NCBI GenBank assembly: GCA_028554795.2
Contig: CM068831.1
Location: 59,519,180 to 59,583,179 of the forward strand
Length of the DNA: 64,000 bases
Source: Sinohyriopsis cumingii
Lineage: Eukaryota > Mollusca > Bivalvia > Unionida > Unionidae
Reading direction: 5' to 3'
The notes beneath the pieces were generated by a model. The model was not told the DNA's origin and made no database searches. It was given only the letters and a program-made list of their open reading frames with translations. The position numbers were made by a program, and so were the translations under genes. This document shows, in pieces, positions 881 to 21,450 of the stretch; the first letter of the stretch is position 1; every line of letters starts with the position of its first letter.

Positions 881-1002
881 GGTCTATGGAAATGGAACAT
901 GGGAAAATTGAAACAGGGAGGGTCTCTATTTTTTTTTTTTAAAAGGGTATGCAATGAAAGTCTATCTCTTTTCGAGACCTATGAGTGGCCCTGAAAAGGG
1001 CC
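880..1002. repeat. Left terminal inverted repeat of element 1
   Basis: This stretch matches the reverse complement of 21435-21560 over about 125 bp. Shared blocks are GGGTCTATGGAAATGGAACA, a T/A-rich run, ATGAAAGTC...TTTTCGAGA and the hairpin GGCCCTGAAAAGGGCC. The inner edge is the hairpin, which is the 3' end signal of the neighbouring minus-strand gene. The repeat is short for a Polinton, whose TIRs are usually hundreds of bp long. Confidence 0.8.
987..1002 (-). terminator. Histone-type 3' stem-loop in left TIR
   Basis: Read on the minus strand this is GGCCCTTTTCAGGGCC, a 6-bp stem with a TTTC loop. It is preceded by CCAAA and followed by ACTCA. This fits the metazoan histone mRNA stem-loop consensus (CCAAA, GGYYYU-UUYU-ARRRCC type stem-loop, ACCCA). 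Downstream, at about 961-975, lies GAAAAGAGATAG, like a histone downstream element that pairs with U7 snRNA. It begins 24 nt after the stop codon of the gene at 1026-1625. In the second copy (60016-60032) the loop has one extra A. Confidence 0.85.
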
Positions 1003-1025
1003 TTTGGTTTCATCATCATCTTCTT

Positions 1026-1625
1026 TTATTTCCTCCACTTCTTCCACCATCTTCTAACTTTTGCCGGTATTCCTGTCTTCTTCTTCTTTATTTCTGACTC
1101 AGGCATCCAGTCAGGATGACCTATAGCTCTGAATTTCTCCTGTATTATGATCCAATTGTTGTTGAGTTTTTCAAAGGCCTCTTTTTTCTTTAAGTTTTCC
1201 TTATCCTTTCGTTCTTTATTCTACTTGTCTCTGATCTTCTTTACTTCTTCCTCCATCACTTTTCTCATAAGTTCTTCCGATTTCTTAAGCTGATCCAGGC
1301 CTTTTTTGACAAAGGACCACTCTGTCCATTACATTACGTCTTCCAAAAAGCCCCTTACTTCTATCACATTATCCATGGTTTCCTTCAAGTGACCAATCTT
1401 TACATACTCTGGATCTATAAAGCCTCTTAGTCTTTTTACTTCTTCTCCTATCATCTCTTTCACCAGATCCATAGCTAATTTCAGGTTTGTCACTTGCCTT
1501 CTGACAAAATCCCGGGTAACTTCATGCTTCCATTCTCTTTCAATCCTTTCCAATACATAGGCTCCATTCACCATCCAATACCAAATGCCCTTCAACTGGT
1601 TAAACAATTCTGTTACAGCCACCAT
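1026..1625 (-). pseudogene. Terminal gene A: charged helical protein, two internal stops
   Basis: One reading frame runs from ATG at 1625 to TAA at 1026-1028 (199 codons), interrupted by in-frame TAA (1329-1331) and TAG (1221-1223). The first 98 residues begin MVAVTELFNQLKGIWYWM and are rich in Glu, Lys, Arg and Val, which suggests helices. The frame ends with Lys/Trp-rich sequence. I do not recognise the family. The second copy (60056-60658) keeps both stops and is one codon longer (three Glu codons where this copy has Gly-Glu). The stops therefore predate the duplication, unless they are tolerated. A histone-type stem-loop follows the stop by 24 nt, and a two-copy upstream motif lies at 1689-1778. 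Confidence 0.6.
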
Positions 1626-1688
1626 CTTCCTTGTCTTTATTCCTTAGAATGGCGCAAACGACGAATTTTGTGGGTACTTATACGAAAA

Positions 1689-1778
1689 GCGTGGACGTGA
1701 AGGAAAACATCCCCTAAAACCAAAAACTTATATTACCTAGACCATCACTTAAAACGCGCGGACGTAAAGGAAAACATC
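1689..1778 (-). promoter_or_regulatory. Paired upstream motif of gene A
   Basis: Two copies of the 23-nt motif GCG(T/C)GGACGT(G/A)AAGGAAAAC+ATC lie at 1689-1711 and 1756-1778, 67 bp apart, upstream of the minus-strand start at 1625. The same pair with the same spacing lies upstream of gene B (3761-3783, 3828-3850), and a single copy lies upstream of gene C (4566-4588). Position and conservation suggest a shared promoter or enhancer element. This is inference. Confidence 0.6.
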
Positions 1779-1779
1779 A

Positions 1780-2017
1780 CCTAATTTTCACTTCTCATAT
1801 TATCTACTATTCACACAGTAATGACTAGACAAATAACATAAGCATACTATCCACACACACACACGCAAAGCATCCAAATCAAACCCAAACTATACTATCG
1901 ACACACACGCCAAGCATCAAAAACATAACCATAATCTATTATCCACACAAACTTACGATAACACTTACAAAATCCAATAATCTACTATCCCCACATACGT
2001 ACGTGAGCTAATACAAT

Positions 2018-2051
<34 letters not shown>

Positions 2052-3190
2052 TACAACCACACCAGGAAAAGAGTCAGTGTTTATTTTCACACTGCTCCAC
2101 ATTCACACATTGGCAAATCTATTGCTATTTCTTTTGTCACGGAATGGTGTAAATGTTGTTAATTAAATACATGTACTCGGGTTTCGTTTCTTTTTCTCTG
2201 TACAACGATACCCGAGGGTGATTATAATATGGTCTATGTATTTCGAAATCGTGAGTACGATTCGTCCTGTGCCACACGTGCAAGGTGCCTTTGATAAAGA
2301 ATAACGAAAATTCTAAAGGTATAAATACGTTACTGCATGTAAAGGACCTTTACAATACTAATGGTTTTGTCAGCAAGCGGCCTGCTTAAAGGATTCGCAC
2401 AACTCCAGCTGTAGGGCTGAGTTTTTGATGGTAGGAATATCCGGGGTGTCCGGTGTTGTCAGAGGGTAAAAACGTCCGTGTGTCCGGAGCGTTTAAGGTG
2501 CCGGAGCGTCTAATGTCTAGCGTCCGGAATGTCAAGAGTGACTAAGGTGACCCAGCTGTAGAGCCGTCAAAGGACCAGGGGGTCCGGAGGGTCTAATATT
2601 TCAAGTGTCCGGAGGGTCTAATGTTTCAAGTGATCATAGTATTCCGAGGGTCCGGAGTCTATATTGGTTGTGAAATTGATTCAGAGGAGCTGTGGAGCGG
2701 ATATGGTGCACGGGTGACGGAGTGCATCTCCACACATGTATTTTTAGCTGTATGCTAATTTTGGGTTAGTAAGACCCAGTGTATTATTCAGGACTGGAAG
2801 GATAGATTGTATATCCGTTCTTATTTAGTGACATAATTTCGCTACCTGAGCGAATACATTTTTTTTACTATGTGTAAACACTTACATTGTTTACTATTTG
2901 AGTGAACTATATTCATCTTTCCATTATTGAATCATTTGTGAAATCATTTATCCTGTATTTTAGGGTTACATGAACTAAATTTGTTTGTATATTTTTTCCA
3001 TCTTTGAAACTGTGCGGTTTTTTTTGTTAAATAGATCCAATATTTGGATTATAAATACGCACACATCTTCATCATCCACTACTCATATAAATCGCCACAT
3101 TAAACCATATATCTGTGTCGTCAAAACGTGTTCTGTTGTTAATCCGAAATATCCCACCCGGTTATCTTGTTACATCTTTTCTAGAGTATT
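1780..3190. other. Non-coding spacer between terminal genes A and B
   Basis: This 1.4-kb stretch holds (CA)n microsatellites near 1853 and 2020-2044, repeated CACAC-flanked ATCTACTATCC segments, and an iterated TCCGGA region (2430-2660). The stretch 2070-2140 resembles 4000-4060 upstream of gene C's stem-loop, so it looks like the remains of another cassette that lost its hairpin. I see no credible gene. It is present nearly unchanged in the second copy. Confidence 0.6.
2430..2660. repeat. Iterated TCCGGA/GTCCGGAGGGTCTAAT cluster
   Basis: About ten occurrences of TCCGG-type hexamers fall within about 230 bp, including near-direct repeats of GTCCGGAGGGTCTAAT. The cluster is GC-richer than its surroundings and is conserved in the second copy (about 61487-61720). 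It could be a cluster of protein-binding sites, for example an enhancer or origin. Its function is unknown. Confidence 0.5.
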
Positions 3191-3194
3191 GGAT

Positions 3195-3210
3195 AGCACT
3201 GAAAAGGGCT
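3195..3210 (-). terminator. Histone-type 3' stem-loop of gene B (one mismatch)
   Basis: The minus strand reads AGCCCTTTTCAGTGCT. The TTTC loop and most of the stem are kept, but one stem pair is broken by a C-to-A change on the plus strand. The second copy (62252-62267) has the perfect form AGCCCTTTTCAGGGCT. The flank has CTAGAAAAGA about 12 nt downstream, like a U7-pairing box. The hairpin starts 31 nt after gene B's terminal stop. Confidence 0.75.
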
Positions 3211-3240
3211 GGGGTTTTTTTGAACTTCAGATGCACCTAT

Positions 3241-3694
3241 CTAATGCTGGCACCTTCCTGGTCTGGCACCGCACACACATCTCCGACTCCAGTCTCCTTG
3301 CCAATTCACCCTTGTCGCTGGAATCGCATAGGCGGGTCGGGTGGCTTAGCTATTCCAATCTTCTGTCTCTGGAATAGTGAATACTTCCCTTTCTCTTCTT
3401 CTATTTCTAATTCTAGGATGAATCGGCATCCTTACCTCCTGTTGTGGTTGTGACTGTGGTGCAGCTACAGGCTGGGGAGATGTCCTTGCCTCAGGTGTCA
3501 CCTTGCACACAGGGTTCATCATAGGGTGACACCTGATCTCTCTCTTTTTTTCCTCCTCTTCTTTCATTTTTCTCTCTTCCTCCTCCTGTTCTATCCTGGC
3601 TTCTTCCACAAGGGCCGTTCAGGAGGCATCTGGCATACTCCAGATGCATCTGAAGTTCCATGAATTTAGTCAGTCTGCTGCTCATTCTACTCAT
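3241..3694 (-). pseudogene. Terminal gene B: Glu/Arg-rich coiled-coil protein, frameshifted
   Basis: The reading starts at ATG 3694 (MSRMSSRLTKFMELQ), shifts frame near 3610, then continues through a Glu/Lys/Arg-rich coiled-coil stretch (MEEARIEQEEEERKMKEEEE) and a Pro/Gln segment to a terminal TAG at 3241-3243. This copy also has a TAA at 3346-3348. The second copy has GAA there, so that stop arose after the duplication. The family is not recognised. Low-complexity composition makes function hard to guess. It is followed by a histone-type stem-loop and preceded by the paired GCGCGGACGT motif. Confidence 0.55.
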
Positions 3695-3760
3695 TTTCTA
3701 GTGTTGATCAATCAACAGGGGTAGCTAGACTGCCGAGCGATTTTCAATTTTCGACGAAAA

Positions 3761-3850
3761 GCGCGGACGTGAAGGAAAACATCACCCAAGACCCAAAACT
3801 TATATTACCTAGATCATCACTTAAAACGTGCGGACATGAAAGAAAACATC
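3761..3850 (-). promoter_or_regulatory. Paired upstream motif of gene B
   Basis: Motif copies lie at 3761-3783 and 3828-3850, separated by the same CCAAAACTTATATTACCTAG spacer seen upstream of gene A. The whole 1685-1880 and 3755-3930 stretches are paralogous, so the cassettes were duplicated with their control regions. Confidence 0.6.
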
Positions 3851-3933
3851 CTCTACTTTTCTCATCTCATATTATCTACTATCCACACAGTAATGACTGG
3901 ACAAATAACATAACCAAACTATACTATCCACAA

Positions 3934-3972
3934 ACACACACACACACACACACGCACACGCACACACACACA
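3934..3972. repeat. (CA)n microsatellite
   Basis: A CA run interrupted by CG units lies in the spacer between the gene B motif and gene C. The second copy carries a shorter run at about 62992-63022. Confidence 0.9.
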
Positions 3973-4072
3973 TAAACATATACAATCACACCAGAAAAGA
4001 GTGAGTGTTTATATTCACACTACATACACACATTGGCAAATCGATTGTTATTTCTTTTCTAGAGATTGGGAT

Positions 4073-4088
4073 AGCCCTGAAAAGGGCT
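4073..4088 (-). terminator. Histone-type 3' stem-loop of gene C
   Basis: The minus strand reads AGCCCTTTTCAGGGCT, a perfect 6-bp stem with a TTTC loop, followed by ATCCCA (close to the ACCCA flank) and then CTAGAAAAGAAATAAC, a purine-rich U7-type box. It starts 28 nt after the stop of gene C. The second copy at 63124-63139 is identical. Confidence 0.85.
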
Positions 4089-4115
4089 GGGATTTTTGTG
4101 TGTGTGAAGTTGAAG

Positions 4116-4499
4116 CTATGGCGATCTTTTAGGTTCTAAGAATGCAACGTCCTCTGACGATAGGCTTTCTCCCAGGATAAGGTCTGCTTCTTCGGAAAGA
4201 GAAGAAGAACTCTTTGGTGTCGATACGACAGTCGACAAGGCCTCTGTCAGGTTCAGGTTGCTGCTGCTGCTGCTGCTGCTGTTGCTGTTGCTGCTCTCTC
4301 TGCTGTTTCTGAAGTCTGTCCTTCTCTGTCCATTCTTCTTTCTCCCTGTTAATTTCTTCTCTGAAGAGCTCTTCTATCAGGTCTTCATGACTTTTTACAT
4401 TCTCACATTCTCTATCTCTTCTGGCTTCGGTATCAGACTGTGTCTGACCCTATGCAAATTCACGTAGGCCTCGTTTAGCTTAGCTAGTCTGGAGCACAT
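4116..4499 (-). pseudogene. Terminal gene C: Gln-rich coiled-coil protein, frameshifted
   Basis: A reading from ATG 4499 (MCSRLAKLNEAYVNL) to TAG 4116-4118 needs two frame changes, near 4450 and near 4240. The middle part encodes an acidic/basic coiled coil followed by a poly-Gln run from a CAG/CAA repeat (about 4258-4290). The C-terminal part is Ser/Glu-rich and ends near EPKRSP. The CAG-type repeat may have driven one slip. The family is unknown. The gene has a single upstream GCGCGGACGT motif and a histone-type hairpin downstream. The second copy is at 63167-63550. Confidence 0.5.
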
Positions 4500-4565
4500 C
4501 TTCGTAGGAGGATGAGTCGACAATGAATGGTTAGACTGGAGACTGCCCCGGTTTTTAAAGTCAAA

Positions 4566-4588
4566 GCGCGGACGTGAAGGAAAACATC
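4566..4588 (-). promoter_or_regulatory. Upstream motif of gene C
   Basis: A single copy of the GCGCGGACGTGAAGGAAAAC motif lies 67 nt upstream of the gene C start. It is identical in its first 23 nt to the upstream copy of gene B. Confidence 0.55.
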
Positions 4589-4589
4589 C

Positions 4590-4832
4590 CTACACGGTTT
4601 TCGAGTCGGAACGTTTAATGAGTGTCATGGGAGGGATAGAGAGGTCAAAGAGAATGAATCAAGATTCCTATAGCAAAACAAACCACAAAGACATTTTTTC
4701 AAAACACAACATTTTTTTTATATTCAAAATCACTTAACACTAACAAACAAATATAACATTTTAACAATAATCAAACAATATAACATCAAACATTTTTATT
4801 TCAAATACCAAACATTTTTTTCAATTAACACA
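4590..4832. other. AT-rich spacer at the end of the core gene block
   Basis: There is no gene here. The stretch is A/T-rich and contains TTTATT (AATAAA on the minus strand) near 4797, a likely poly(A) signal for the minus-strand protease transcript. If so, the core genes use ordinary poly(A) ends, unlike the terminal genes. Confidence 0.5.
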
Positions 4833-5393
4833 TTATTTTGGACAGGGCTGACAACATTGTGAATGAAATTGTGATTTCCACTTTTGGAAGTCATTAGGCC
4901 ATTGATGGACACTACGTTTCCTAGCTTGAGACAAAAGATAAGCATAATGGTCACAGAACCATCGATCTACTTTCACATCGTTTCTAGAAGAAGAACGAGG
5001 ATTAAAATGAGTCACTAAATGTTCTAAAGAATAGCCCAGACTGCGATGACGCAGAAAATACATACAATATTGTCCACACACCAAGGAATCTGTGCCTTGT
5101 AATTTCACATTATTGAATCAGGTGGTCTGAGCATTTCTTCTCAAAAAGTCAATGATATCGTCTTCCAAAGGAGGCAATCCATACAAATCGAAATATTCCA
5201 CACATCCTTCTTGAGGAAAGTAGACGGCTACCCAGTGGGTTCCTTGGAGATGACTGTCGTCCGTGTTGATCATATAAGCTTGATGGTCTTGAGGTTTGCG
5301 ATGAGGGAGTTCATCTTTAGCACAGACGACAGGATTCCAAGAAGCCGTGTACGAACTGTGGTTCTAAAGATAATAAAGTTCCCAGGTATCCAT
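4833..5393 (-). pseudogene. Adenain-like cysteine protease (capsid maturation)
   Basis: The C-terminal part contains LVCGQYCMYFL, which carries the catalytic Cys region of adenovirus-type proteases. The upstream part has GTHWVAVYF (catalytic His) and YFDLYGLPP (acidic residue), in the usual His-Asp-Cys order. The likely start is ATG 5393 (MDTWELYYL), as in family members. The frame is broken by TAG at 5364-5366 and TGA at 5118-5120, otherwise length and order are normal (about 187 codons). Such proteases cleave capsid precursors during virion maturation. The gene lies downstream of the capsid block, as is common in adintoviruses. The second copy's 3' end is at 63884. Confidence 0.85.
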
Positions 5394-5903
5394 GGTTTGT
5401 CTTGCTTTTTTCTTCACAGGTAATGATAAGTGATCAATTCGATCCTGATTTTCTCTTGGAAAATGTCTGACAAGTAACCGTTTCTTCACTTCGTCTCCCC
5501 ACTCTGATTCAGGAGAGCTTCGATGCGATGGATCTCTTGAGTGGTTAATGGAGGACAAGCCTTTATACCACTGTTGCAACACGTCTTCTTCCGAGATGAG
5601 ACTCCAAGCTTCGTCCAGATATTCGTCCAATTTTTCTTCTTGACTCAGCATCAGACATTTGTCGTGTTGGATTTGACTGGAATGATCGTTGTGACATCCA
5701 TAGCACTCTTCCTTGATTAATTCTTTCATTTTATCTGCCAGGACTGTAGCAAAACAGGAGACTAAATGGGCTTCTTGTTCTGGCCATCTCGACTTCATCA
5801 TGATAACTTCTTCGTCTTTGTCGTGGGATTCTTCTTCCACGGTCTCCTCACATTCCATGTCTAGAGTTTCTCCACTAGGTAAAGAGGGATAACAGTCTTC
5901 CAT
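5364..5903 (-). CDS. Conserved virion-associated hypothetical protein
   Basis: This is an acidic protein of about 170 residues beginning MEDCYPSLPSGETLDMECEE. A central Cys-rich segment (CYGCHNDHSSQIQHDKCLM) resembles the C-x2-C...SQ..HD.CLM pattern I associate with a hypothetical protein found next to Polinton capsid genes. The frame runs on into the protease start at 5393, so the true end is uncertain: the native stop may have been lost, or the two are joined by decay. It sits 5 nt downstream of the capsid gene. Function unknown. Confidence 0.55.
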   Translation of the reverse strand: MEDCYPSLPSGETLDMECEETVEEESHDKDEEVIMMKSRWPEQEAHLVSCFATVLADKMKELIKEECYGCHNDHSSQIQHDKCLMLSQEEKLDEYLDEAWSLISEEDVLQQWYKGLSSINHSRDPSHRSSPESEWGDEVKKRLLVRHFPRENQDRIDHLSLPVKKKARQTMDTWELYYL

Positions 5904-5908
5904 GGTTT

Positions 5909-7112
5909 CTAATAATCTAGAATGACTTCTCTTAAACTGTTGATTTCTATCGTATTATCAAATTCTGCATACAGGAGGACGTTCACCGTCTCAGTTAGAG
6001 CTTCTGCAAACTGAAGATCCACACGAATGTGGCCGGATTTTATAGGGTGGAAATGTCCCTCGTCGCTACCTTGGTCTGGAGTGAAATCAAAAGCCCACAA
6101 AGCATAGCCTCCTGCATAATCTTCGTACGTAATGTCATGACTGGTGTTGGTCCCTAACTGTCCAGTGGCTTCGTACAGGGACAAGTACGACCTCAAGTAA
6201 TTCTGCTTGTCAAATTCAGGTTCGAAAGGTCGGGTACACAAGGTCTTGCCATTGCGACTGACTTCAATCTTGGACACTTTGTAATGTTTAAACTCAAAAG
6301 GATTTTGAATGTGGACTCCGTTGAAGGCTCTATTCTCGACCATGCCAAGAATTAAACGTTTGGGTAACTGCCCTTGGAATAGATGATCTTCGATCATGGA
6401 TCGCTGTTCAGCGGATATGGTGAAGGTTTTCACTTCCACGCGTCGTATGGGATACTTGGCGGTCGTTCTGCTTAACGTGTGACTGATGTCGTTTCCCACT
6501 TTAGGTAACACTTCCACACGTCGTACGTAGAGTCTGGCTTCTTGTATGATGGTTTTGTAATTGTCACTATCAGCCACTAAATGGAAAACGGCACTGCTAC
6601 GATTCAGTCTCAGACGAACATTCACCCCGTTCAGCAAATACTTTTCTTGCAACCACGTGTCCAAATGCAAACGATCCATCAGTTCTAAGCTCTGTCCATT
6701 TTTTATTTTGTCTCTTCGTTCTACAAATCCCTCGTTGTGTGTTTTGGTTGTATCAATTTCGGTTTCGTCAAACTGGCCTGCATCGTCAGCTTCCCAAGAG
6801 ATTTTCCAGGTACGCTTGATAAGGGTAAGTATCCATGCTGCTACTGACTAGTTTGTTATTCAAGTAGAAGTCCACTCCGCTAAACAAGGAATGCATGAAA
6901 TTGTTGACGGGAGCTACTTGCTCGTCATCTATATCACCTCCTGTTTTATCTAGAACTTTGATTTTCAGGTACAAGTAACTGCTGTTCAGATCGATGTAAT
7001 CTTCGGGCTGCTCTTTGATTTCAAACTCGATGGGAGCGGAATCCGTCAAAGAGGAGACAGGGTGAAATTCCACCCATTGGGATTCTTGCATGGTCATCAT
7101 GGTGGGTGGCAT
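5909..7112 (-). pseudogene. Major capsid protein, F54H12.2-like (one frameshift)
   Basis: The first 108 residues (MPPTMMTMQESQWVEFHPV, then YIDLNSSYLYLKIKV) match the N-terminus of the widespread metazoan F54H12.2-like family, which comes from Polinton-type double-jelly-roll capsid proteins. A single frameshift near 6790-6800 separates it from the remainder, which reads open to 5909. Total length is about 400 residues. In the virus this protein would form the hexon-like capsomers. It lies between the pX-like gene and the conserved hypothetical gene. The family call is strong. Its role as the major rather than a minor capsid protein is from family knowledge. Confidence 0.85.
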
Positions 7113-7186
7113 GGCAAACAGATCCAGTTCCTACTTGGAACAGACGCAAGACTCTCGGTGCATCATTTTTTCTGTTTCTCAATACT

Positions 7187-7627
7187 TTAATAATCGAAAA
7201 CGTCTAAGTCTCGAACGTTTTTTTTTGTTGTCTTTCTAGCTTTAGAAGTGTGAAGTCTGGTGAAAGGATGTTTTCTTCGTCGTCTTTTTCTGCCTTGTCC
7301 TTGCTGTGGCTTCAGGGAAGTAGGAATGCCTGACTCAGTAGCGTGCAGGGCATTTATAGGTGTTTCTCGTCGGCCTAAAAGGTCTTTGCCTGTTTTCAGC
7401 AAGACATTTTTGCCTGCCCTCAAGAAGGCTTCTTTAGGGTTTTGTTTGTCGATGATGACATTATGGAGAAATTCTTTGCCGTGTGTCAATGCCGCATCTT
7501 TCAAGGCGTGCAATCCGCGTGTCACCATCGGTTTCAACAGGGGGGCCACCGAACGAAAAGCCGATTTTAGCATATCTCCTAAACCGTGTCCACGCTGTCG
7601 AGCAACCCCTCGGTACACTGGATACAT
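7187..7627 (-). CDS. pX/protein VI-like basic virion protein
   Basis: This 146-residue protein starts MYPVYRGVARQRGHGLGDML. It has an amphipathic helical region (about residues 18-60) and a very basic tail (GRKRRRRKHPF). A Gly-rich start with an amphipathic helix and a basic C-terminus is typical of the adenovirus pX/pVI-like proteins placed next to capsid genes in adintoviruses. Such proteins condense DNA or disrupt membranes. A related short protein occurs in element 2 (47507-47764). The frame is intact. Confidence 0.65.
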   Translation of the reverse strand: MYPVYRGVARQRGHGLGDMLKSAFRSVAPLLKPMVTRGLHALKDAALTHGKEFLHNVIIDKQNPKEAFLRAGKNVLLKTGKDLLGRRETPINALHATESGIPTSLKPQQGQGRKRRRRKHPFTRLHTSKARKTTKKNVRDLDVFDY

Positions 7628-7630
7628 GAC

Positions 7631-8560
7631 TTATGGGTCGTGAGAGAACCGTTTTCGAAAATGGAGTTTCACGGTGACTTTTCCTTTGGTGAATGGAATA
7701 TTTTGTCCCAGATCTCCTTTTATAGTAATGTTGACCGTGTCCAAATACGACTTGCTGACAGGCAAATAATGAGGATGTACAAATTCGCGGTGGACGTGAT
7801 AAGTGTTTCCACCTTCCTCGTCAGCGAGGGTGACAGACTCCACTTTGAAAGGAATGACACGCAGTAACGGTACGGAGGTGTGTCCCACCACGTTGTACTC
7901 CACCACATCGGAGTACACAAAGATCAAATTCAGTCCTTGGTTCAGTTCTACCAGGGAATGAAATAACTTGGTAAAAGAATCGTTGTCGGAAATGACCGGT
8001 AATTCGTTTTTCTTGATCATGGCCATTCTTATGTCCATGTCCCCGCCCAACATGTCAAACAATTCAGGACAAAATAAAATGGACATGATTTTATCCCCGT
8101 CAAATTTCATCAGGAAGCGACAAACTACTTTGTGGTACTCCAGGGTGACAATTTTTCTGACATTTTCCAAAGCTTTCAGAAATACAACGTTAAATCTGGA
8201 GGTAATGGTGCTGACCAAATGTTGTCCACTAAAATAATAGCCTGGGGGAATAATCAAGCGACAGGTCGTTTTCTGAGTTTGTGAGTTATAGATTTTATTA
8301 TCATATTTGACGTTGGTATTCAAGTACTGTTGCATTTGCTCGTCATGAACTTCGATCGTAAAATAATTTTGATTGGGAAGGACATTGAGGACTTGGGTCG
8401 GGTGAATGATTTCTACCAAAGCCACTTCCCAATGGGTTTCGTGATCTAATTGGATGGGCTGAGGTAATTTGGCCGTGTAACAGCACAACGTTTTCTTGGG
8501 AAACACCTCCATGGAACTGTCACTAGGTAAGGTTAAGTAAAATTGGTTAGTGTGACTCAT
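7631..8560 (-). CDS. Minor capsid (penton) protein, single jelly roll
   Basis: An intact 309-residue frame starts MSHTNQFYLTLPSDSSMEVF, followed by TAKLPQPIQL and WEVALVEIIHP. This N-terminal pattern is characteristic of Polinton/adintovirus penton (minor capsid) proteins, in which the jelly roll starts by presenting a WEVALVEI strand. Length is normal for the family (about 300). The protein would occupy the capsid vertices. It overlaps the membrane protein gene by a few nt and ends 4 nt before the pX-like gene, as in a compact late block. Confidence 0.88.
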   Translation of the reverse strand: MSHTNQFYLTLPSDSSMEVFPKKTLCCYTAKLPQPIQLDHETHWEVALVEIIHPTQVLNVLPNQNYFTIEVHDEQMQQYLNTNVKYDNKIYNSQTQKTTCRLIIPPGYYFSGQHLVSTITSRFNVVFLKALENVRKIVTLEYHKVVCRFLMKFDGDKIMSILFCPELFDMLGGDMDIRMAMIKKNELPVISDNDSFTKLFHSLVELNQGLNLIFVYSDVVEYNVVGHTSVPLLRVIPFKVESVTLADEEGGNTYHVHREFVHPHYLPVSKSYLDTVNITIKGDLGQNIPFTKGKVTVKLHFRKRFSHDP

Positions 8561-8964: not shown

Positions 8965-8969
8965 GATGG

Positions 8970-10707: not shown

Positions 10708-10745
10708 GGGTCAATTCTGAGATTTTGGGACTTCAGAGGTCCCTT

Positions 10746-11419: not shown

Positions 11420-11499
11420 CTTTTGGAAGTTCACTGATACCCCTACTTAGTCACAGACCTTTTATATATTGGAACGAGTCGCCACTGATTGTCTTTACG

Positions 11500-12431: not shown

Positions 12432-12497
12432 ATTCAAACTGTGTGAGACAGAAGAAAAGTGTCTGAGTTTTTATAGAGTCTTATTTTTTGAGTGAAG

Positions 12498-13226
12498 TTA
12501 AGTCGAGGACGGAGATTTGTACAGGACAGGCCCTCCGTCTTGGCACCAGTGGTGAAACAAGTGGGTACGAAATCGCAAATCATCGGGGGTTGTCGGTTTC
12601 AAATCGACGAGTAAATAGGCGTGTGGAGTTTGAATGGCATCGTCGTACGCCTAAGTCAGCCAAGGCGTTCCTAACTGTTTGTCTAAGACTTGCACTTGCG
12701 ATTTATCTCGAGGGTTTTTAAACAAGACCACGTAACGCGCATTGAGACTGATGGTGCGATGGGCTTTACTTTGTTGAAACAAATTTTGAGTGATGTAAAT
12801 GACACTGGCATTACGCTGATGCCCTTTGCGCGTGAACCACAGTTTAATTTCTTCTTCGTCTTCTCCTAACATGTCGTGGAAAATGACCAAATGGGTTTGA
12901 CGGGAGTCAGAGACGATTCCGTCGTCTTCTTTAGGAATGCCTTCCACAAACACGATGGAATCGCCTTGACTTTCTCGCAAGAGGCTGTACGCCGATTGCC
13001 ACTCTTTGTAACACCACACGGTGCGATGAGGTGGACGATCGATCAAATGATGTTTATGTTCGATCAAACGTTTGACGAATTCGGTTTTGCCTGAACCGCT
13101 AGGTCCAGCAATGAGCATGTTAAAGGGATGGCGAAGATACAAAGCCTCCCAACTGGCACGATCTAAGTGTTCGTCGATGACTTTGAGAGTAGAGGAAGAG
13201 GGAGCAGAGACAGCAGTAGTAGCCAT
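12498..13226 (-). pseudogene. A32-like DNA-packaging ATPase (single internal stop)
   Basis: ATG 13226 to TAA 12498-12500, 242 codons, with a single TAG at 12651-12653. Walker A is GPSGSGKTEF (about residue 40). Walker B is HLVIFHDML. A downstream SVIYITQNLF strand fits the FtsK/HerA (A32-like) packaging ATPases of Polintons and NCLDVs. It would pump genomic DNA into capsids. After the TAG the frame stays open to a normal end, so only one base change separates it from an intact frame. It is one of the least decayed core genes. Confidence 0.88.
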
Positions 13227-13310
13227 AGTGTCAGGAATGTCACTTGTGACACGAAAACAGACAAGACAAGAGTTTATATACTTTTTTCAGAACACGTTTA
13301 TTGAATGTTT

Positions 13311-13910: not shown

Positions 13911-14012
13911 ACCACTTGTCGACCGAAATTGATTGGATACAGTTCTTGTAATAATTGATGGTAATGATCCACGGTTTGAATATGGTCACTGAGTTCCTTT
14001 CAAGGAATCTGT
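13911..14012. other. Short gap with no clear gene
   Basis: About 100 nt between two minus-strand genes. It may hold the degraded 5' end of the gene at 13311-13910. I cannot see a convincing frame. Confidence 0.4.
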
Positions 14013-14504
14013 TCAATCACATGTGATAAAAGTTGTGGCATGGCAGCCTGTTTTTATACTCTCTTTGCTTCGGAAACAATACACGTACTTTCTAGCCAGA
14101 GATCTTCGTTCTCCAGTTGGGAATCTAAATGCTCCAAACTGTAACCTAAACTTCAAACTTCGATTAGAAGTTTCCTCTTCCTCTAAGTAGATTTCACTTA
14201 AAATATGTTGGTAATCCTTTAACTTGTCTTCCTCAATGCGTTGCACTAGGTGAATCTCGAAGTAACCAAAATTATGAACACGTGGATCATTGGTGGCCTG
14301 GAAGTATTGAACAAGGTCTGACCACTGAAACAATTTCTGACGAATCATTTCTCTTATGCCATTCAGGCACCAGTGGTTAAACATCTGATGACGTAACGGA
14401 TGCAACTGTTCTTTACGTTTGACTTGTATTTTGACCACTTCTCGATAAATGCGTTCTATCAACTCAACAGGCAAGCCACGAATGTTCTCTAGCAAAGTAT
14501 CCAT
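14013..14504 (-). CDS. F-box-like protein 1
   Basis: A 163-residue frame from ATG 14504. Near the N-terminus is LPVELIERIYREVV, which resembles the start of an F-box (LPxELxxxIxxxL), followed by Trp-containing helices and a Lys/Arg-rich tail. F-box proteins recruit substrates to SCF ubiquitin ligases, and large DNA viruses often carry them. The motif is short, so this is suggestive only. The next gene upstream has the same motif, so the two look like tandem duplicates. Confidence 0.45.
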   Translation of the reverse strand: MDTLLENIRGLPVELIERIYREVVKIQVKRKEQLHPLRHQMFNHWCLNGIREMIRQKLFQWSDLVQYFQATNDPRVHNFGYFEIHLVQRIEEDKLKDYQHILSEIYLEEEETSNRSLKFRLQFGAFRFPTGERRSLARKYVYCFRSKESIKTGCHATTFITCD

Positions 14505-14530
14505 GAATAGGTTAGTCCGTACAATTCACA

Positions 14531-14912
14531 ATCTCCTAGAGCAAAAGTAATCCACATAGTAAGTAATTTCTGACCACTGCCATTCAGGGTAATGTCCAAG
14601 AATCTCATTGAACTCTTTTGATGTAAACGGTCTAGAGTGATATAATAGGATGAATGCACACTTGACCCAAAGAAATCTAACACATTGATTGATTTTGTTC
14701 ACTTTCCTCTTGTGAATTTCTCTTCACAAAAGTTCTACAGTTACCCATTGAGATTTCACTCTGGCAAGTCGTTGCCAAACTTCCTTGTAAATCTTCTCTT
14801 GCAGTTCTTTAGGTAATGATTCAATATCGTTTTTGAAATGGAGTTTAAATACTGGTCTCGGTGATGTCCAACATTTGACTCCTAACCAATCTGGTTTCTT
14901 CTTCAACGACAT
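14531..14912 (-). pseudogene. F-box-like protein 2, one internal TGA
   Basis: ATG 14912 (MSLKKKPDWLGVKCW) leads to LPKELQEKIYKEVW, the same motif as in the neighbouring gene. The frame is broken by TGA at 14724-14726 and continues in the same frame to a TGA near 14531. It encodes about 126 codons, shorter than its neighbour. Likely a paralogue. An SCF adaptor-like role is inferred only. Confidence 0.42.
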
Positions 14913-14923
14913 GGTAAGTTACT

Positions 14924-15391
14924 TCAATGTCTCGGTCCCACTAAGGGTAAGTAATGACAATTCGGTGACCATCGAGCGTGTTCTAGGTAGGCCGAATCTT
15001 GCGGTTCACAGTGGTGGAGTGACACACCGCAACTGAAGCACTTGACTTTTTCCCCTTCACCCAAGTAGAAAAATCCGGCCCTGGCTAATTCTTCGGGGGT
15101 CGGTCCTCCCAGATACTTAGGCCATTTTCCTTTGAACGATTGAAGACGATTTTCAGAGTCGCAGTATTCAAAGAAACGCACAGGGAACGAATATTCGTCT
15201 TTCACAGGTTCGTTTCGATGAGAGTTGGGTGACATGGACAGGAGTTTGCTCAGGGTTGGATGACATCCGTAGGGGGGTAGACGTGAAGGTGGACATCCAC
15301 ATTTAAAACGAAACCCAGTAAAGTGTCCAAGAGGACGAGCGGCATCGCTTTCGCATCCCTCAGGTTTGACACGCACAGCATCACTTTCCAT
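14924..15391 (-). CDS. BIR-domain (IAP-like) protein
   Basis: A 155-residue intact frame. The C-terminal half carries a baculovirus IAP repeat: RLQSFKGKWP, then LARAGFFYLGEGEKVKCFSC (first Cys pair), then EHARWSPNCHYL (His and last Cys). This is the C-x2-C-x(n)-H-x(6)-C zinc pattern of BIR folds. No RING is visible. The N-terminal half has Cys/Pro-rich sequence but no complete second BIR. BIR proteins bind and block caspases or their activators, so in a virus it would delay apoptosis. It was probably captured from a host IAP gene, which are numerous in molluscs. It sits between PolB and the F-box-like genes. Confidence 0.85.
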   Translation of the reverse strand: MESDAVRVKPEGCESDAARPLGHFTGFRFKCGCPPSRLPPYGCHPTLSKLLSMSPNSHRNEPVKDEYSFPVRFFEYCDSENRLQSFKGKWPKYLGGPTPEELARAGFFYLGEGEKVKCFSCGVSLHHCEPQDSAYLEHARWSPNCHYLPLVGPRH

Positions 15392-15488
15392 GATAGGGGT
15401 AGTGAGAACAAAGTTCCGATGATGCTTTACGGCATCGCTAAGGTCATATTCATCTTGTTCGCTTCGTCTTGGTAGTCACAATGAACTA

Positions 15489-18400
15489 TCAATCTTGCCT
15501 AGGGTTCCTTTTTATATACAAGCCAATACCAACATGTCCATACGGCAAGGTGAAATGACTGGGAAGTCGCACTCGCTTCTGGTAAACGATTTGATAGACT
15601 TTTTCCAAGGGTCGACTGACGATGTGGTGAGTGGGTAAACGTACAATCTTGTTGGGCTGATAGGTGGTCACTTTAAAGTGTTCATCTTCTCTAGACTGCA
15701 AAGCTTCTTTCAATACGCCAAAGTTCACCACTCAGCTGGTACGATAATTCAGAGTCAATCCTTTCACTTTACACTTCGTGTACACTTCTCCTTGTTTGTC
15801 CCGGTATTCGTAGCCGTAATTTTTAGGACCGCCACTCGCGAAACTTAGAATCTTGTCGTTGGGGTGCTCGTCTGTCCAGGCTCCTAAACGGTCTCCTTCG
15901 ATGTCAGGGTGCTGTTCACTCGGGTGATCGATGTAAATGCAACTGTCCGTGTCAAAGTATCGGACACGTTCCCCTAACAGTTCTAAAGCTTCGTACAATT
16001 TTAAGCGAGCATGAACTGTCACGTAAGCCGCAATGATGACATTTCCAAAGGGATCGGTTTCTACAAAGTCCAGATCTTCTTCGTAATTCACTAAGATCAA
16101 ATCCTCGCGAACGACGTCCACGTGTTTCATGAATTTGGTTTTGTCGTGAATCATCTGAAAGTAGCGGGAAGGTTCTGTCAAATACTCCGTCTTGGGTAAA
16201 CACGGTCGTTGTGCCATTTTGCCACACAAGCAATTTAACATCACTTTGGCAAACGATCGCCTGCCTTCGTTTTTCTCGATGTGATCTAAAGAGACGCCTT
16301 CTTGTGTCCAGTATTTCTCTTTGAATGTATTTTGGTCTTCGGGAGTGTGACACCAAGAAGGATAGCCACTGGCTTCTTGCTTTAGTTTCAAAAAGGCATC
16401 CACGTAGTCGGCGAAAATGCCTTTCTGCGTGGGGTCACCGTTATGGTATTGCTGTGTCTTGGGAAAGTGGCAAATTTCGTACACTTCTAACAGTTGGTAT
16501 TCCATCTCCAGAGCTTTGAACAATTCTACGCTGACCCAGGTTCCCGTCAAAGCCCGTTCTTCCTGGGTGTGCTGACACTGTTGGTCTTGGTTGCACGTTT
16601 CGGCACAAGTACGGCGCAAAGGAAATATCAGTTTGTCTTGGCAATGGTGAGGTAACACGAGATGGTACAAGTCAGTTGGAGGCAAATCTTTACATTTGAT
16701 CAAGCCTTCGTATTGTCAAATGTTTTCGTGGGTCGATGTGTTCCGTCAACAATTGTGGGTGCCCTGCAGGAAAGTGACAATATTTGCACACGTAGGGATA
16801 CCACGAACACATGTCCAAGTATTTGATTTCTTCTCCTTTCTCTTCGTCGGCTGCATGCAGCAAACAGGTGGCATTGGTCCTTCCTCCGTATAAACTATCC
16901 CTCGGATTCAGGGGGTCCATGAACTGGTAACTTTCCACGAGGCGTTTAAACTCGGGATCGGTTTTCAAACGGTGATCGTATTCGTGTTCCCACATTTCCA
17001 CCACATGGTATCCTTGCTGTTCTAACTTTAGGCGTCGCTGACAAGTGTCCTGGTACAAGTTTTCCATGGTTCGTTGTAAAAACTGATTTTTAGTGTCACG
17101 GTCAGGGTAACAGACGGGGCATCCGTGAAATAAACAGCCGTTAAACTCGCACACGATCTTGGAGTTTTCTAAGTCTCAGCCATCTACCGAATGCGTTCCG
17201 ATGGTCTTTTCACCTCCTCCGTTGCGGGCATGTTCAATCCATTTGTCTTCCTTGTCGCACAAGTAATGTAACCAGCGTAGGGCTTTGACCGAGTATTGAC
17301 GTTTGACATAGTTGGTCGTTTGAGGACTGATGACAGCCAAGGTGTTTTCAGGCATGAATCGTTGCCGGTAGACTAAGGAACACGCTTTGGCAATGGTGCA
17401 AGCTTCTTTCAAAGGATCGACCCCTCCATGTTCCATGAACAGTTCTCGAAATTTTCCACAGCAACGCCGTAAAATGTCCACGTGGAACGACAATACTTTA
17501 GCATTTCTTCCTGAAAGTCGAAAGGGTCCGAGGCATGGGTCTGGTACCAAGCGTAGAAAGCTTCTCGTTGTTCGGTACGCATGTTGTCGGGGTCGTAGTC
17601 TTTAGCCTTAGGCAAATGGGGTAGAACGGTATGTTGATTGGCTTCGGTATTGAAAAAGTGAGGAAAGTACCCTTTAGCCATTTCTGTCATTCCAAACGTT
17701 TTAGGCATTCGACTCAAAGGCATGGCCAAGTAACTCATGGAATCTTTAAACTGCACTTGTCCCACTTGCATGAAAATGATTTTGGCTCCGTTCAAAGTGA
17801 CTTTAGGACGCTCGGTACCATGTTCCGTATAGTATCTGAAAAGAAACTGTCCATCGTATCCGGAGAAATTGTGAGCCATCACCGTGGCATGACGATGACA
17901 ATCTCCGTTACGTTCGATGTCCTCTTGGCTCCACGTCTTGTCGATGGGGTCTAAGACCCATCGGGCGAATTCGGCTAGCGTGTTCGGTCCTCGAAAGATT
18001 CTTTTCACGTCCTCCAGGAATCTTGCTGCAGTGAGGGCAATGACTAAAGATAGGTTCTTGAATACACTTCTCGCAGGCTCGATGAGCCACGCAGAAATTA
18101 GGAATGTGAATGCCAGTCTCTTGCATGCATTCGAAATCGAAAAAGAAGAAATTGCCTTTCTTCTTGTGACCATCCTCTTTGTCTGGTTGGGGTTGGTATT
18201 TTTGCACGTAGCATTGGTGTTCCATGTCCACGATGTGGTGACAAATGTGACATCTTTTCTTTCCTGAACATATGTGTGTCTTGGCATTATTGGTAAGTAT
18301 GCCTTGTCCACACGTAGGGCACAATCTCAGGTGTTGACAAGCACATTTCTGCTGTGAACCTTGCGTCTTCAGATGTTGTTAGTAACAGGCAGGGCTGACA

Positions 18401-19554
18401 AACGTGCGCAGACAAGCTGGACAATGCACTCGTTCTTGTCCTTCGTTCAGACAGGGTTGAGAGGCCAAACATCCTGAGCATTTCGATCCACAATGCTTGT
18501 GTTGCTCTCGATTGTTATAGCCATAGTCACATTTCTCACAGTATTAACCGTATCCGAGGAATGCGGTGATAGTGGTAATGGTATCGAAATGTTCATCGTG
18601 ATGATAGAGGTGAATATATTTTCCAGCCTTAAAGTCTCTCCCTCGAAACAACAGAGGCCCGCGCACTTCTTGAGGGTGGACTTTCAAGGTGTAGCGTGGA
18701 GCTAGGACATCTTGCAATTTTTGCATCTCAGGAATGCCACAGGGTGTGTCCTTGGACAGACCGGCTTGTTGTAACAGAAGTTCTGCTTCATTTCGTTGTT
18801 TGGTTCGGTTCAATTTTCGAATGTTCTTTCAGTCTCTTTTCCATTCTGTCGTGTCGTTTTTGTTGGCATATGTTCGTCCCACCACGATAGCCCTGGCCAA
18901 ACACATGTGGTCTTGAAAATTGTTAATTTGGGCGAGGCTACGCTTAATGCTGCGAAGACCGTTCACCGATAAGACCTTTTTGCGTCCAGTCCCTTGAGGA
19001 GGAGAGACGTGGGTCGTATCCAGTGTGGCTTTTCCATCGGTGATGTCAAACTGGTCATTGGATTGTTGCACGTGTTGAATCTTGTCCATGACTTTGGAAG
19101 CGGTCAATTCTGCAGGGCTGCTAAACTCGATCCAAACAGGGGATTTCAAGCCGTCGTTTTGTATGGAAAGTCTCAAGCGATCGTCTTCTTTGTGTTGACA
19201 TTGTCGCTTGAGTGTGGTGAGCAAAGAATCCCACATCTCGGTGATGAACCCTTCTGCTTTCTCTAACGGTACTTCGGACTTGAAATCTTTAAACTTCACC
19301 GTGTATTTGTAAGCCGTGGTTCTAAATTTTCTAGAGGGACGCTTTTCCGTCTCTTGAATGGAATAGTATTTTTCAGGGTTGACTAAGGGCGGTGAACTTG
19401 GTTTAGAGGGTTTGGATTCTGGTTCACTCATGTCATCTTCAAAATCACTGGCATGAATTTGTGCCAAGACTTCAGCCCTGGTACGAGGCGATAGATCACG
19501 TTTCTGCCTCTTACTTTCTTCTTCTTTCTTCTCATATGAATTGGATCGTTTCAT
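15489..19554 (-). pseudogene. Protein-primed-type DNA polymerase B, heavily broken
   Basis: About 4.07 kb from ATG 19554. The N-terminal extension ends in SIKRSLAQINN...LARAIVV. A Cys-rich zinc region lies at about 18540-18290. The exonuclease part has FFFFDFEC and AHNFSGYDGQF. The polymerase part has KYLDMCSWYP (motif A), KVMLNCLCGKM (motif B), RYFDTDSCIYI (motif C) and a KGLTLN thumb motif. Breaks are in-frame TGA at 18829, TAA at 18544 and near 18377, TGA near 17177, 16718 and 15732, and frameshifts near 18020, 17500 and 16730. Several TGA sites could come from CGA, consistent with CpG decay (inference). It would have replicated linear viral DNA from a protein primer. Confidence 0.9.
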
Positions 19555-19687
19555 CTTGATAGCAAAAAGTCAAATGACTAAAGTTTAAACACCATGGACT
19601 AATTTATAGTCATGGCAGACCAACGTATATAAAGGGTATGTGTCTTGTCCTTTCACTATTCATTTCACTCTCAAACCGAGTAGAACG
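19555..19687. promoter_or_regulatory. Divergent promoter between PolB and the zinc-knuckle gene
   Basis: This 133-bp intergenic stretch separates two genes facing away from each other. A clear plus-strand TATA box, TATATAAAG, lies at 19626-19634, 54 nt before the ATG at 19688. On the minus strand TTTATAG-like AT sequence occurs near 19600, but it is weaker. Confidence 0.6.
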
Positions 19688-20128
19688 ATGGAAGAGACTA
19701 CCCAGATCGAACGTTTCATCAGAGCTTTGCGAGGGGTCATTAGAAAATTTTCTTCAGATCAGCCGTGGGACTACTCTCCTTTCTTTCGAGATAAAAGTGA
19801 AGATACTTGCTATATCTGTCAGAAGAAAGGGCATTGGTCTTCAGAGCGTCCAGGCCGTCAAAAAAGCAAAACAGGGGTTAAAAGAGACAAAAGTCAAGAT
19901 ACCTGTTATCATTGTCAAGAAAAAGGATATTGGTCTCCAGATTGCCCTAAGAAACAAGAGGAGACAGAAGAAGAAGAAAGGGATTATGGAGAGGGAGAAG
20001 AAGAAGAAGAGAACGAAAGTAGACAGGTGAAGAAAAAGAAACAGGAGAAGAAAAGAAGAAGGGAAGAAAGTGAAGAGGAAGAAGAAGAAAAGACAGAAGA
20101 GAAAAAATTGAAAAAACAGAGAGAGTAA
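19688..20128 (+). CDS. CCHC zinc-knuckle protein with acidic/basic tail
   Basis: ATG 19688 (MEETTQIERFIRALRGV) is chosen over an upstream in-frame ATG at 19640, because the TATA box is at 19626. Two knuckle-like units follow: CYICQKKGHWSSERP and CYHCQEKGYWSPDCP. Each has lost one ligand of C-x2-C-x4-H-x4-C: the last Cys is Arg in the first, and the His is Tyr in the second. A long Glu/Lys tail with repeated EEEE and KKK follows. AATAAA lies at 20211. The protein probably bound nucleic acid. Whether it still can is doubtful. It is one of only two plus-strand genes in the element. Confidence 0.75.
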   Translation: MEETTQIERFIRALRGVIRKFSSDQPWDYSPFFRDKSEDTCYICQKKGHWSSERPGRQKSKTGVKRDKSQDTCYHCQEKGYWSPDCPKKQEETEEEERDYGEGEEEEENESRQVKKKKQEKKRRREESEEEEEEKTEEKKLKKQRE

Positions 20129-20369
20129 ACAAAGAGACAGAAGAAGTGTTATGAACTTTTTAAAGTGATTTGTTGTGAATTGTGAATTGGATTGTAAATA
20201 TTTATAAAAGAATAAATTAGGTATAAAATGGTAAGTGTCTTTGGGTTTTGATTTTAAAATAAGAACCTATACTCACGCACTCATGCACAGACACGTACTA
20301 TAGGGTAAAATGGGGTTTATTTTTAGTTATTGGCAACTGAAAGTCTATCTCTTTTCGAGAGACGTGGGT
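20129..20369. other. 3' UTR and convergent spacer
   Basis: AT-rich sequence with the AATAAA signal (20211) of the plus-strand zinc-knuckle gene. Then comes GCAACTGAAAGTC...CTTTTCGAGAG (20331-20362), the U7-type box downstream of the minus-strand stem-loop at 20370. No gene. Confidence 0.6.
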
Positions 20370-20385
20370 GGCCCTGAAAAGGGAT
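20370..20385 (-). terminator. Histone-type 3' stem-loop of gene D (outer pairs lost)
   Basis: The minus strand reads ATCCCTTTTCAGGGCC followed by ACCCA, the exact histone flank. The inner four base pairs and loop are intact; the two outer pairs are mismatched. CTCGAAAAGAGATAG follows, nearly identical to the box in the left TIR. The hairpin starts 22 nt after gene D's stop at 20407. Confidence 0.75.
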
Positions 20386-20406
20386 ATTTTTTGTTTAGGG
20401 GTGAGT

Positions 20407-20975
20407 TTAAGCAATCAACTTTAACTGCCTTAAGCCTTTGCCACGGCCGAGGCCTACTTCTGATGATGATGATTTGGTTGAAATCACTAAGGGTGGTACG
20501 GTAGGCTTAGTCACAGGGCTGGAGTGTTTAGCTCGGGAAGGTCGTATTCTCTTCGGTCGTGATAAAGAAGTCTGATACATTTGTTTCAGACTTCTTAACT
20601 CCACTAAAATGTCTAACAGTACCGTGACGGTTTGACTTTCACCCTCTTGTTTCTTTGCTGCTTCTTCTTCTTCTTGTTTTTTTTTCTTACCTCTTCTTCT
20701 TGCTGATGCTGCTGTAGGAGAAAAGCTTGTTCTGCTTCCTTTTGCTGCTGTATAAATTTCTCCAATTCTTCTTTCTGTCTTTGTCTAAAATTCTCCACGT
20801 GTGGTAATGAAGGTGACGAAGGTTCCGGAACAAATTCTTGCGAGGTAAGAAAATCCACATAATCCCAATTCACCTTTTCTGAAAGTAAGTCCGGGTTCCC
20901 TTGAGTAGTCTTTACGGCTGGTACACCCCAACTGATCGTTTTCTGAGTTTCCGTCATGTTGAAATACTGTCGCAT
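20407..20975 (-). pseudogene. Gene D: Gln/Glu-rich coiled-coil protein, frameshifted
   Basis: ATG 20975 (MRQYFNMTETQKTISWGV). Then come WDYVDFLTSQEF and a long coiled coil rich in Gln, Glu and Lys (about 20770-20660). A frame change near the poly-T/A tract at 20670-20690 leads into a Ser/Pro/Lys C-terminus ending at 20407 (LGRGKGLRQLKLIA). No family recognised. Composition and 3' end match the left-end genes B and C, so it may belong to the same family of terminal cassette genes. It is divergent from gene E at 21178. Confidence 0.5.
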
Positions 20976-21177
20976 AGACAGACTGCGCACAGGCGCTAGC
21001 GAATCTATATAGACTACGTGACGTCACAGACTGGTCTCTTCGGATTGGACGTGGGCTGACTGAATTTTGTAACGCGTGTTTGGATTGGTCAACGAACTCA
21101 ATCCGTTTCAATCCTTCCTCTCCCTATAAATAAGTGCAGTTCACTGCATTCCTTCACCTGTTACTCGGCGCCTCAAC
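20976..21177. promoter_or_regulatory. Divergent promoter of genes D and E with CRE-like site
   Basis: On the minus strand a TATATAG box (21004-21011) lies about 30 nt upstream of gene D's start. A palindromic TGACGTCA (CRE/ATF site) is at 21019-21026. On the plus strand CTATAAATA (21124-21132) lies 46 nt before gene E's ATG. Two facing TATA boxes around a CRE look like a compact bidirectional promoter. Confidence 0.65.
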
Positions 21178-21411
21178 ATGTGGACCGACGTGCAATCTTC
21201 CACGCTTGTATCATACATGATGTTCCGGACGGACATACCAATGTATGTCCGATCCAACTGGACAGTTGTCAATAGGACAGACACCAGCCTATGGATACGT
21301 AGGATCTATGTAGAACGTCAAGGATGCCTCAAAAGAGTGTTAATATATGGTCCTACAGTGAGGCGCAGCCTAAGGACAAGAAGAAGACCAATGCGGTGCC
21401 CTTTCTCTTAA
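21178..21411 (+). CDS. Gene E: small basic hypothetical protein
   Basis: ATG 21178 to TAA 21409-21411, 77 codons, intact. It begins MWTDVQSSTLVSYMMF and ends Arg-rich (RRSLRTRRRPMRC). No family recognised. Support for a real gene is positional: a TATA box 46 nt upstream, and a perfect histone-type stem-loop 24 nt after the stop. It is transcribed outward into the right TIR, mirroring gene A on the left. Confidence 0.6.
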   Translation: MWTDVQSSTLVSYMMFRTDIPMYVRSNWTVVNRTDTSLWIRRIYVERQGCLKRVLIYGPTVRRSLRTRRRPMRCPFS

Positions 21412-21434
21412 GGGTATATTAACATAAACCCAAA

Positions 21435-21450
21435 GGCCCTTTTCAGGGCC
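21435..21450 (+). terminator. Histone-type 3' stem-loop in right TIR
   Basis: GGCCCTTTTCAGGGCC on the plus strand, preceded by CCCAAA and followed by ACTCC, then CTCGAAAAGATCATGAC as the U7-type box. It is the inverted partner of the left-TIR hairpin at 987-1002, so both element ends terminate outward transcripts in the same way. Confidence 0.85.

Follow-up and report, generated by a model that had tools for sequence, protein, structure and literature searches.

Terminal genes of a Polinton-like provirus family in Sinohyriopsis cumingii carry histone-type 3' ends and are predicted to use the host's histone expression signals

Results

Stem-loops and purine boxes past the terminal genes of a Polinton-like element

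We analysed a stretch of 64,000 nucleotides from the bivalve Sinohyriopsis cumingii (GenBank assembly GCA_028554795.2, contig CM068831.1, positions 59,519,180 to 59,583,179 of the forward strand), hereafter the window, which holds a Polinton-like element with small terminal genes that we call A, B and C at one end and D and E at the other. The stretches 1-4949 and 59036-64000, which form the ends of the window, are copies of each other at 98.7% identity, and A, B and C are present in two copies; the coordinates of all features are collected in Table 1. An earlier note on this DNA, made from the sequence alone, had described eight hairpins past these genes, each with a 6-bp stem, a TTTC loop and a GAAAAGA(G/A) box about 10-20 nt further on. 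When stem and loop were checked at the eight sites and the box spacing was counted from the printed sequence contexts, all places and strands proved to be right, but a perfect 6-bp stem with a 4-nt loop was present at only five of them, namely after A, C and E and after the second copies of B and C. The stem after B has one mismatch (5 bp), the stem after D has two (4 bp) and the hairpin after second-copy A has an extra loop base. GAAAAGA itself stands 13 nt from the stem at all eight sites.

The covariance search that the earlier note had proposed, with the Rfam model RF00032 (Histone3 3' stem-loop; curated gathering score 34 bits, matches listed at E<=1), gave a divided result: two of the eight sites, those of A and E, scored at or above 34 bits, but four others reached only 22.0-29.3 bits and the two mismatched sites were not listed. 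The hairpin core CCCTTTTCAGGG occurs 12 times in the window with up to two mismatches, whereas 100 shuffles gave 3.7 on average and at most 9; eight of the 12 occurrences are the reported sites. The stem-loop and box feature is genuine, and some of its copies in the window are decayed.

The host's own histone genes served as a yardstick. They lie in tandem units of about 8.27-8.29 kb in a genome of 2.9 Gb. In three stretches that carry them (L061-L063), the ends of H3, H4, H2B, H2A and H1 score 35.0-39.4 bits against RF00032, the stems read GGCCC...GGGCC (GGTCC...GGACC for H1), and GAAAAG(A/G) follows 13-14 nt past the stem, as counted by eye. Stem, spacing and box thus place the signal of the element close to that of this host. 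Since stem, loop, spacing and purine box match the host histone genes, the earlier interpretation of these sites as histone-type 3' ends on genes of the element is supported.

The signal is conserved among copies of the terminal genes across the genome

Searching the genome with RF00032 yielded 75 scored places among 589,472 first-look places, all 75 above the cut-off, and in 30 loci fetched from this set the flanks resembled gene A, D or E by eye. Because a sample selected by RF00032 is skewed to good hairpins, copies were then chosen by protein similarity. Protein searches for E, D, B and A gave at least 150 scored matches each, from 14,716 to 35,710 first-look candidates, and most of the scored matches had no internal stop. 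From these we took the 150 nt past 20 matches per gene, spread down each list, that is 80 of the 600 matches listed.

A 6-bp stem, with G-U pairs allowed, was found in 76 of the 80 copies (E and D 20 each, B and A 18 each, of 20 per gene) and an AAAAGA box in 78 (20 each for E, D and A, 18 for B), rates that apply to copies scoring high by protein and not to decayed ones. The box lay 13 nt from the stem in 75 copies and 12 nt in three. For mononucleotide-shuffled flanks the count was 0 of 16,000, and in a control set of 300-nt flanks past a core gene (relatives of 7631-8560) the hairpin occurred in 0 of 20. Pooled over 74 distinct flanks, entropy was 0.03 in the loop, 0.17 and 0.22 in the stem and 0.18 in the box, compared with 0.92 in the spacer between stem and box, which is variable in sequence and nearly constant in length. 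The first stem pair is A-T in all 20 copies of B and G-C in 59 of the 60 copies of A, D and E, so that both sides of the pair have changed. An in-frame stop was found in 76 of the 80 copies, 12-36 nt before the stem. The earlier note had also named an outcome that would speak against its interpretation, namely that the hairpins are fragments of host histone genes; this is not what we found, as the preceding open reading frames (ORFs) have no Pfam match above a curated cut-off and the same element genes carry hairpins genome-wide in the 76 copies counted above.

Genes A, B and C share a promoter motif with host histone genes

A low-stringency BLAST comparison of the element loci with a histone unit recovered the 3' ends and also, as a surprise, 24 nt upstream of H2B that match exactly. 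The underlying 23-nt motif, GATGTTTTCC(A/T)TCACGTCCGCGC, is found about 84 nt upstream of the H2B start, 82 nt upstream of the H1 start (with one difference) and, reversed, 167 nt upstream of the H2A start. In L061 the promoters of H2B, H1 and H2A have a motif of 21-23 nt in common, and by eye H4 keeps only GTCCGCGC and H3 has none. In the window, the motif occurs at ten sites with up to three mismatches, solely upstream of A, B and C in their two copies, whereas 100 shuffles gave a mean of 0.00. We also aligned 260-nt promoters with the host histone promoters, using 60 shuffles each: A, B and C scored 39, 45 and 44, against shuffle maxima of 28, 29 and 32, and the promoters of seven core genes stayed within their own shuffle range. 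Across the 30 hairpin-selected loci, every one of the 34 motif sites (up to four mismatches) is followed on its own strand by a hairpin core, at a distance of 421-1502 nt. For a count per gene in these loci, we took ORFs 60 aa or longer whose end precedes a hairpin and for which at least 200 nt of upstream sequence is present; the motif stands within 250 nt upstream of seven of nine A ORFs and both B ORFs. The motif on A, B and C had not been foreseen and strengthens the histone-type reading of these genes.

Relatives in public sequences

Protein searches of public sequences found 61 relatives of the minor-capsid-like protein, 20 of D and two of E. In one D relative (P0072) and one E relative (P0083) the aligned protein continues past the usual C-terminus (for D, the alignment took in 13 of the 20 relatives), and, as a fit at the protein level, the codons of both would allow the hairpin, the 13-nt spacing and the box with a single mismatch each. 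The next best of the 83 relatives has two mismatches, and among 4,150 shuffled proteins 11 reached two at best and none equalled P0072 or P0083. These fits suggest that the hairpin and box signal may be retained in related elements. In IMG/VR, the hairpin-plus-box pattern matched a single contig with ORFs of phage-like appearance by eye, a match that we took as chance, and the minor-capsid-like protein had no relative there, whether searched as a single sequence or as an alignment.

Reading frames, stops and polyadenylation signals

Genes A, B and D are broken in the window, and open frames of them are present elsewhere in the genome. The earlier note had placed each hairpin 22-31 nt after the stop of its gene. 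This holds for E (23 nt) and for second-copy B (30 nt); A also gives 23 nt, but from an open piece of 26 aa, D falls just outside the range at 21 nt, and for C our script gave no distance in either copy. The claim that core genes use AATAAA instead fared less well: the signal occurs within 250 nt past a protease-like piece (33 nt), a CCHC ORF (at 83 nt) and two further core ORFs among those scanned, yet also past D and the A piece. The proteins of A, B, D and E had no match above the curated cut-off in Pfam, no histone family among their Pfam matches at E<=0.1 and no strong match in PHROG. An AlphaFold model of E had a mean pLDDT (predicted local distance difference test score) of 43.8 and was set aside.

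Host U7 and SLBP

As the host histone genes carry the signals, U7 small nuclear RNA (snRNA) and SLBP are expected to exist in the host. The U7 model RF00066 gave no match at E<=0.001 over the genome. At E<=10 there were three; the best, at 29.3 bits, resembles an intron 3' splice site by eye and has no stretch complementary to the box. Two pattern scans returned 105 and 299 places, compared with 154 and 205 in a reversed control. When 40 candidates of the first scan were folded with their tails, most gave weak structures. Two reached -10.4 and -13.6 kcal/mol, the second of them tRNA-like by eye, and none resembled U7. One place of the second scan, with a perfect antisense match, is another hairpin of the gene-B type on the opposite strand. 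For SLBP, PF15247 found nothing in 14 candidates, a search that is uninformative, as its controls were silent too.

The element and its surroundings

One DNA polymerase B piece and a packaging-type ATPase of the element match Pfam above cut-off (Table 1). A second polymerase piece reaches 20.8 bits, under the cut-off of 25.8, an N-terminal piece gives a weak match to the retrovirus-like integrase family rve (17.1 bits, cut-off 32.6), and candidate capsid-type ORFs, named by eye, have no Pfam match above cut-off. A second Polinton-like element lies at 33260-48134, identified by eye and through an ATPase of the Pox_A32 type (33764-34237); in this part of the window (33-48 kb) there is no RF00032 match at E<=1 and no promoter motif. 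Histone-type ends are not general to Polinton-like elements.

Together with gene E copies in three locations of the same contig, spaced about 60 kb, the repeated window ends suggest a tandem segmental duplication. At G000:C2:61617416-61868390, 14 copies of gene D among the matches listed point the same way and are spaced about 16.7 kb apart, or in some cases twice that; the pattern suggests elements arrayed head to tail. Inside the first element, the ORF at 14924-15391 has a BIR (inhibitor-of-apoptosis) domain (3.4e-21), and a plus-strand ORF at 19688-20128 that adjoins gene D has a zinc-knuckle match (two stretches) and an AATAAA 83 nt past its end. The ORFs at 57129-58292 and 23353-23724 flank the elements and have, by eye alone, the look of AIG1/GIMAP-type GTPases.

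Table 1. Features of the terminal genes and of the Polinton-like element in the window
Feature	Position	Strand	Evidence and remarks
Stem-loop after gene A	987..1002	-	6 bp, TTTC loop; RF00032 38.2 bits over 962-1007
GAAAAGA box, like a histone downstream element (HDE), 13 nt past stem A	967..973	-	sequence
Stem-loop after gene B, decayed	3195..3210	-	one mismatch; second-copy counterpart 62252-62267 has 6 bp
GAAAAGA box after B	3175..3181	-	sequence
Stem-loop after gene C (AGCCCT/AGGGCT)	4073..4088	-	6 bp; RF00032 22.0 bits, under cut-off
GAAAAGA box after C	4053..4059	-	sequence
Stem-loop after gene D, decayed	20370..20385	-	two mismatches; 6 bp in 20/20 D copies examined elsewhere
GAAAAGA box after D	20350..20356	-	sequence
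Histone-type stem-loop after gene E	21435..21450	+	RF00032 36.2 bits over 21430-21475
GAAAAGA box, 13 nt past stem E	21464..21470	+	sequence
Stem-loop after second-copy A, 5-nt loop	60016..60032	-	RF00032 29.3 bits, under cut-off
Stem-loop after second-copy B	62252..62267	-	RF00032 25.8 bits, under cut-off
Stem-loop after second-copy C	63124..63139	-	RF00032 22.0 bits, under cut-off
Promoter motif, gene A	1689..1711	-	1 mismatch; best alignment with host H1 promoter
Second promoter motif, gene A	1756..1778	-	1 mismatch
Promoter motif, gene B	3761..3783	-	0 mismatches; 24/25 aligned nt as in host H2B promoter
Second, diverged motif, gene B	3828..3850	-	3 mismatches
Promoter motif, gene C	4566..4588	-	0 mismatches; best alignment with host H1 promoter
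Promoter motif, second-copy A	60722..60744	-	1 mismatch
Promoter motif, second-copy A	60789..60811	-	0 mismatches
Promoter motif, second-copy B	62818..62840	-	0 mismatches
Diverged motif, second-copy B	62885..62907	-	3 mismatches
Promoter motif, second-copy C	63617..63639	-	0 mismatches
Gene A, N-terminal open piece, broken in window	1329..1625	-	ORF; open 204-aa relative in locus L017
Gene B, N-terminal open piece, broken in window	3491..3694	-	ORF
Gene B second copy, open to stop	62298..62624	-	ORF; 30 nt to stem-loop
Gene D, C-terminal open piece	20407..20580	-	ORF; 21 nt to stem-loop
Gene D, N-terminal open piece	20613..20975	-	ORF
Gene E, 77 aa, open	21178..21411	+	ORF
DNA polymerase B piece	17409..18287	-	PF03175 6.3e-10, 39 bits, cut-off 25.8
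Packaging-type ATPase	12651..13226	-	Pox_A32 25.3 bits, cut-off 22.8
Left inverted-repeat arm with hairpin A	955..1028	.	partner 21409-21482 with hairpin E; 74 nt, 77% complementary
Left inverted-repeat arm outside hairpin A	880..904	.	partner 21535-21559; 25 nt, 96% complementary

Discussion

To our knowledge, histone mRNAs are the sole metazoan nuclear mRNAs known to end routinely in a hairpin of this type instead of poly(A). In the known route of histone mRNA processing (PMC9756948), SLBP binds the hairpin, U7 snRNA base-pairs with a downstream element and cleavage of the pre-mRNA falls between the two; the resulting histone mRNA has no poly(A) and is tied to S phase. Human histone genes with both kinds of end signal are described in PMC9756948. 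Judging from the signals described here, we consider it very likely that this high-copy family of Polinton-like proviruses uses host replication-dependent histone signals for its terminal genes A to E. The genes at both ends would then be built as histone-type genes. SLBP and the U7 small nuclear ribonucleoprotein of the host would recognise hairpin and box, and transcripts would be cut just past the hairpin to give non-polyadenylated mRNAs, made and kept chiefly in S phase. Such timing could let replication of the element DNA profit from the replication supplies of the cell. A, B and C might also respond to whichever factor recognises the promoter element that they have in common with histone genes.

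Host histone genes are the most likely source of these signals, which selection would then have maintained. Histone-type ends together with the promoter motif on three genes suggest that the element times these genes to DNA replication. On balance we also favour a wider proposal, with somewhat less assurance, in which the family captured the entire replication-dependent histone expression module of the host, the promoter element as well as the 3' processing signal: the terminal genes would be transcribed and processed alongside the histone genes, possibly in histone locus bodies, to give mRNAs free of poly(A) and confined to S phase, and the module would act as a viral switch that senses DNA replication in the host and does not force it.

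Several observations weigh against the use of host histone signals by the terminal genes. AATAAA occurs within 150 nt in the flanks of 16 of 20 D copies and three of 20 E copies (A and B, 0 of 20 each); polyadenylated transcripts are therefore a possible alternative for these two genes, and for D in any case a second route to a transcript end is conceivable. D and E have CCAAT- and TATA-like boxes by eye, but as histone promoters they were rejected, with alignments within the shuffle range, and in the hairpin-selected loci none of 11 D and none of 15 E ORFs has the motif within 250 nt upstream. U7 snRNA of the host was not found with RF00066 and the two pattern scans of the genome, and the silent PF15247 search falls on the same side. 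In one or more of the hairpin-selected loci (L002 among them) the stem stands without a GAAAAGA box. Counted per gene, the box of A and B, with entropies of 0.27 and 0.24, shows no stronger conservation than the 8 nt that precede the stem (0.11 and 0.20), a weak contrast that arises partly because some copies are shifted by one base. Finally, since the 80 copies score high by protein, decayed copies are under-counted.

Other explanations of the hairpins were considered. They might serve the DNA itself, as terminal-repeat signals for replication, packaging or integration, their histone likeness being secondary, and the hairpins of A and E do lie inside inverted-repeat arms near both ends of the element. 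Those of B, C and D, however, are internal and stand on the sense strand past an ORF, with a one-sided box at host histone spacing, and the promoter motif on A, B and C would be left unexplained, so that we regard this possibility as very improbable. We would give equally little credence to the hairpin as a general terminator or mRNA-stability structure that acts without SLBP, U7 or cell-cycle control. Giant viruses terminate transcripts at hairpins, and the frequent AATAAA in D flanks would fit such a role; but hairpin sequence, TTTC loop, ACCCA-like flank and purine box copy the host histone signal in detail, beyond a mere stem.

The likeness to the H2B, H1 and H2A units is short and local, at the promoter as at the 3' end, as would be expected if pieces of host histone genes had been captured by chance and persisted as functionless relics. 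What makes such an origin highly unlikely in our judgement is that four genes keep the signal over 80 copies at near-fixed spacing, with a compensated first pair in B, that pooled conservation exceeds that of spacer and flanks, that relatives in the databases fit, and that the genes are open in most scored copies.

If use of the histone signals by the terminal genes is borne out, the element would be a natural case of cell-cycle hijacking via gene ends, would explain how an integrated element times genes to S phase and would offer a direct test of hairpin, box and promoter motif in a setting other than histone coding sequence. Poly(A)-selected RNA libraries would then miss the transcripts of A to E.

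With Polintons/Mavericks and adintoviruses the element shares DNA polymerase B and a packaging ATPase of the A32/FtsK kind; its weak integrase match and its inverted-repeat arms, about 20.6 kb apart, may be further likenesses. With metazoan replication-dependent histone genes (RF00032) it shares the 6-bp stem, the 4-nt TTTC loop, the A-rich 5' and ACCCA-like 3' flanks, the purine box about 13 nt on and a short 3' untranslated region, and A, B and C share the promoter motif with host H2B, H1 and H2A. It differs from them in that its genes cannot be recognised as histones and are part of a mobile virus-like element, in that D and E are without the promoter motif and, as a further point against our interpretation, in that the hairpins of B and C open with A-U instead of G-C. 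In the open-licence PubMed Central (PMC) literature, judged on titles and the starts of abstracts, we found no virus or transposon with histone-type 3' ends, and a term search of a review of histone-encoding viruses gave no occurrence of 'stem-loop', 'SLBP' or 'polyadenyl' (PMC9145170). The signal itself is known; new would be its use, together with a histone promoter motif, by non-histone genes of a mobile virus-like element. Viruses that encode histones, as treated in that review, and the element described here both appear to borrow from the host histone system: the former borrow the protein, whereas the latter would borrow the signals for its expression.

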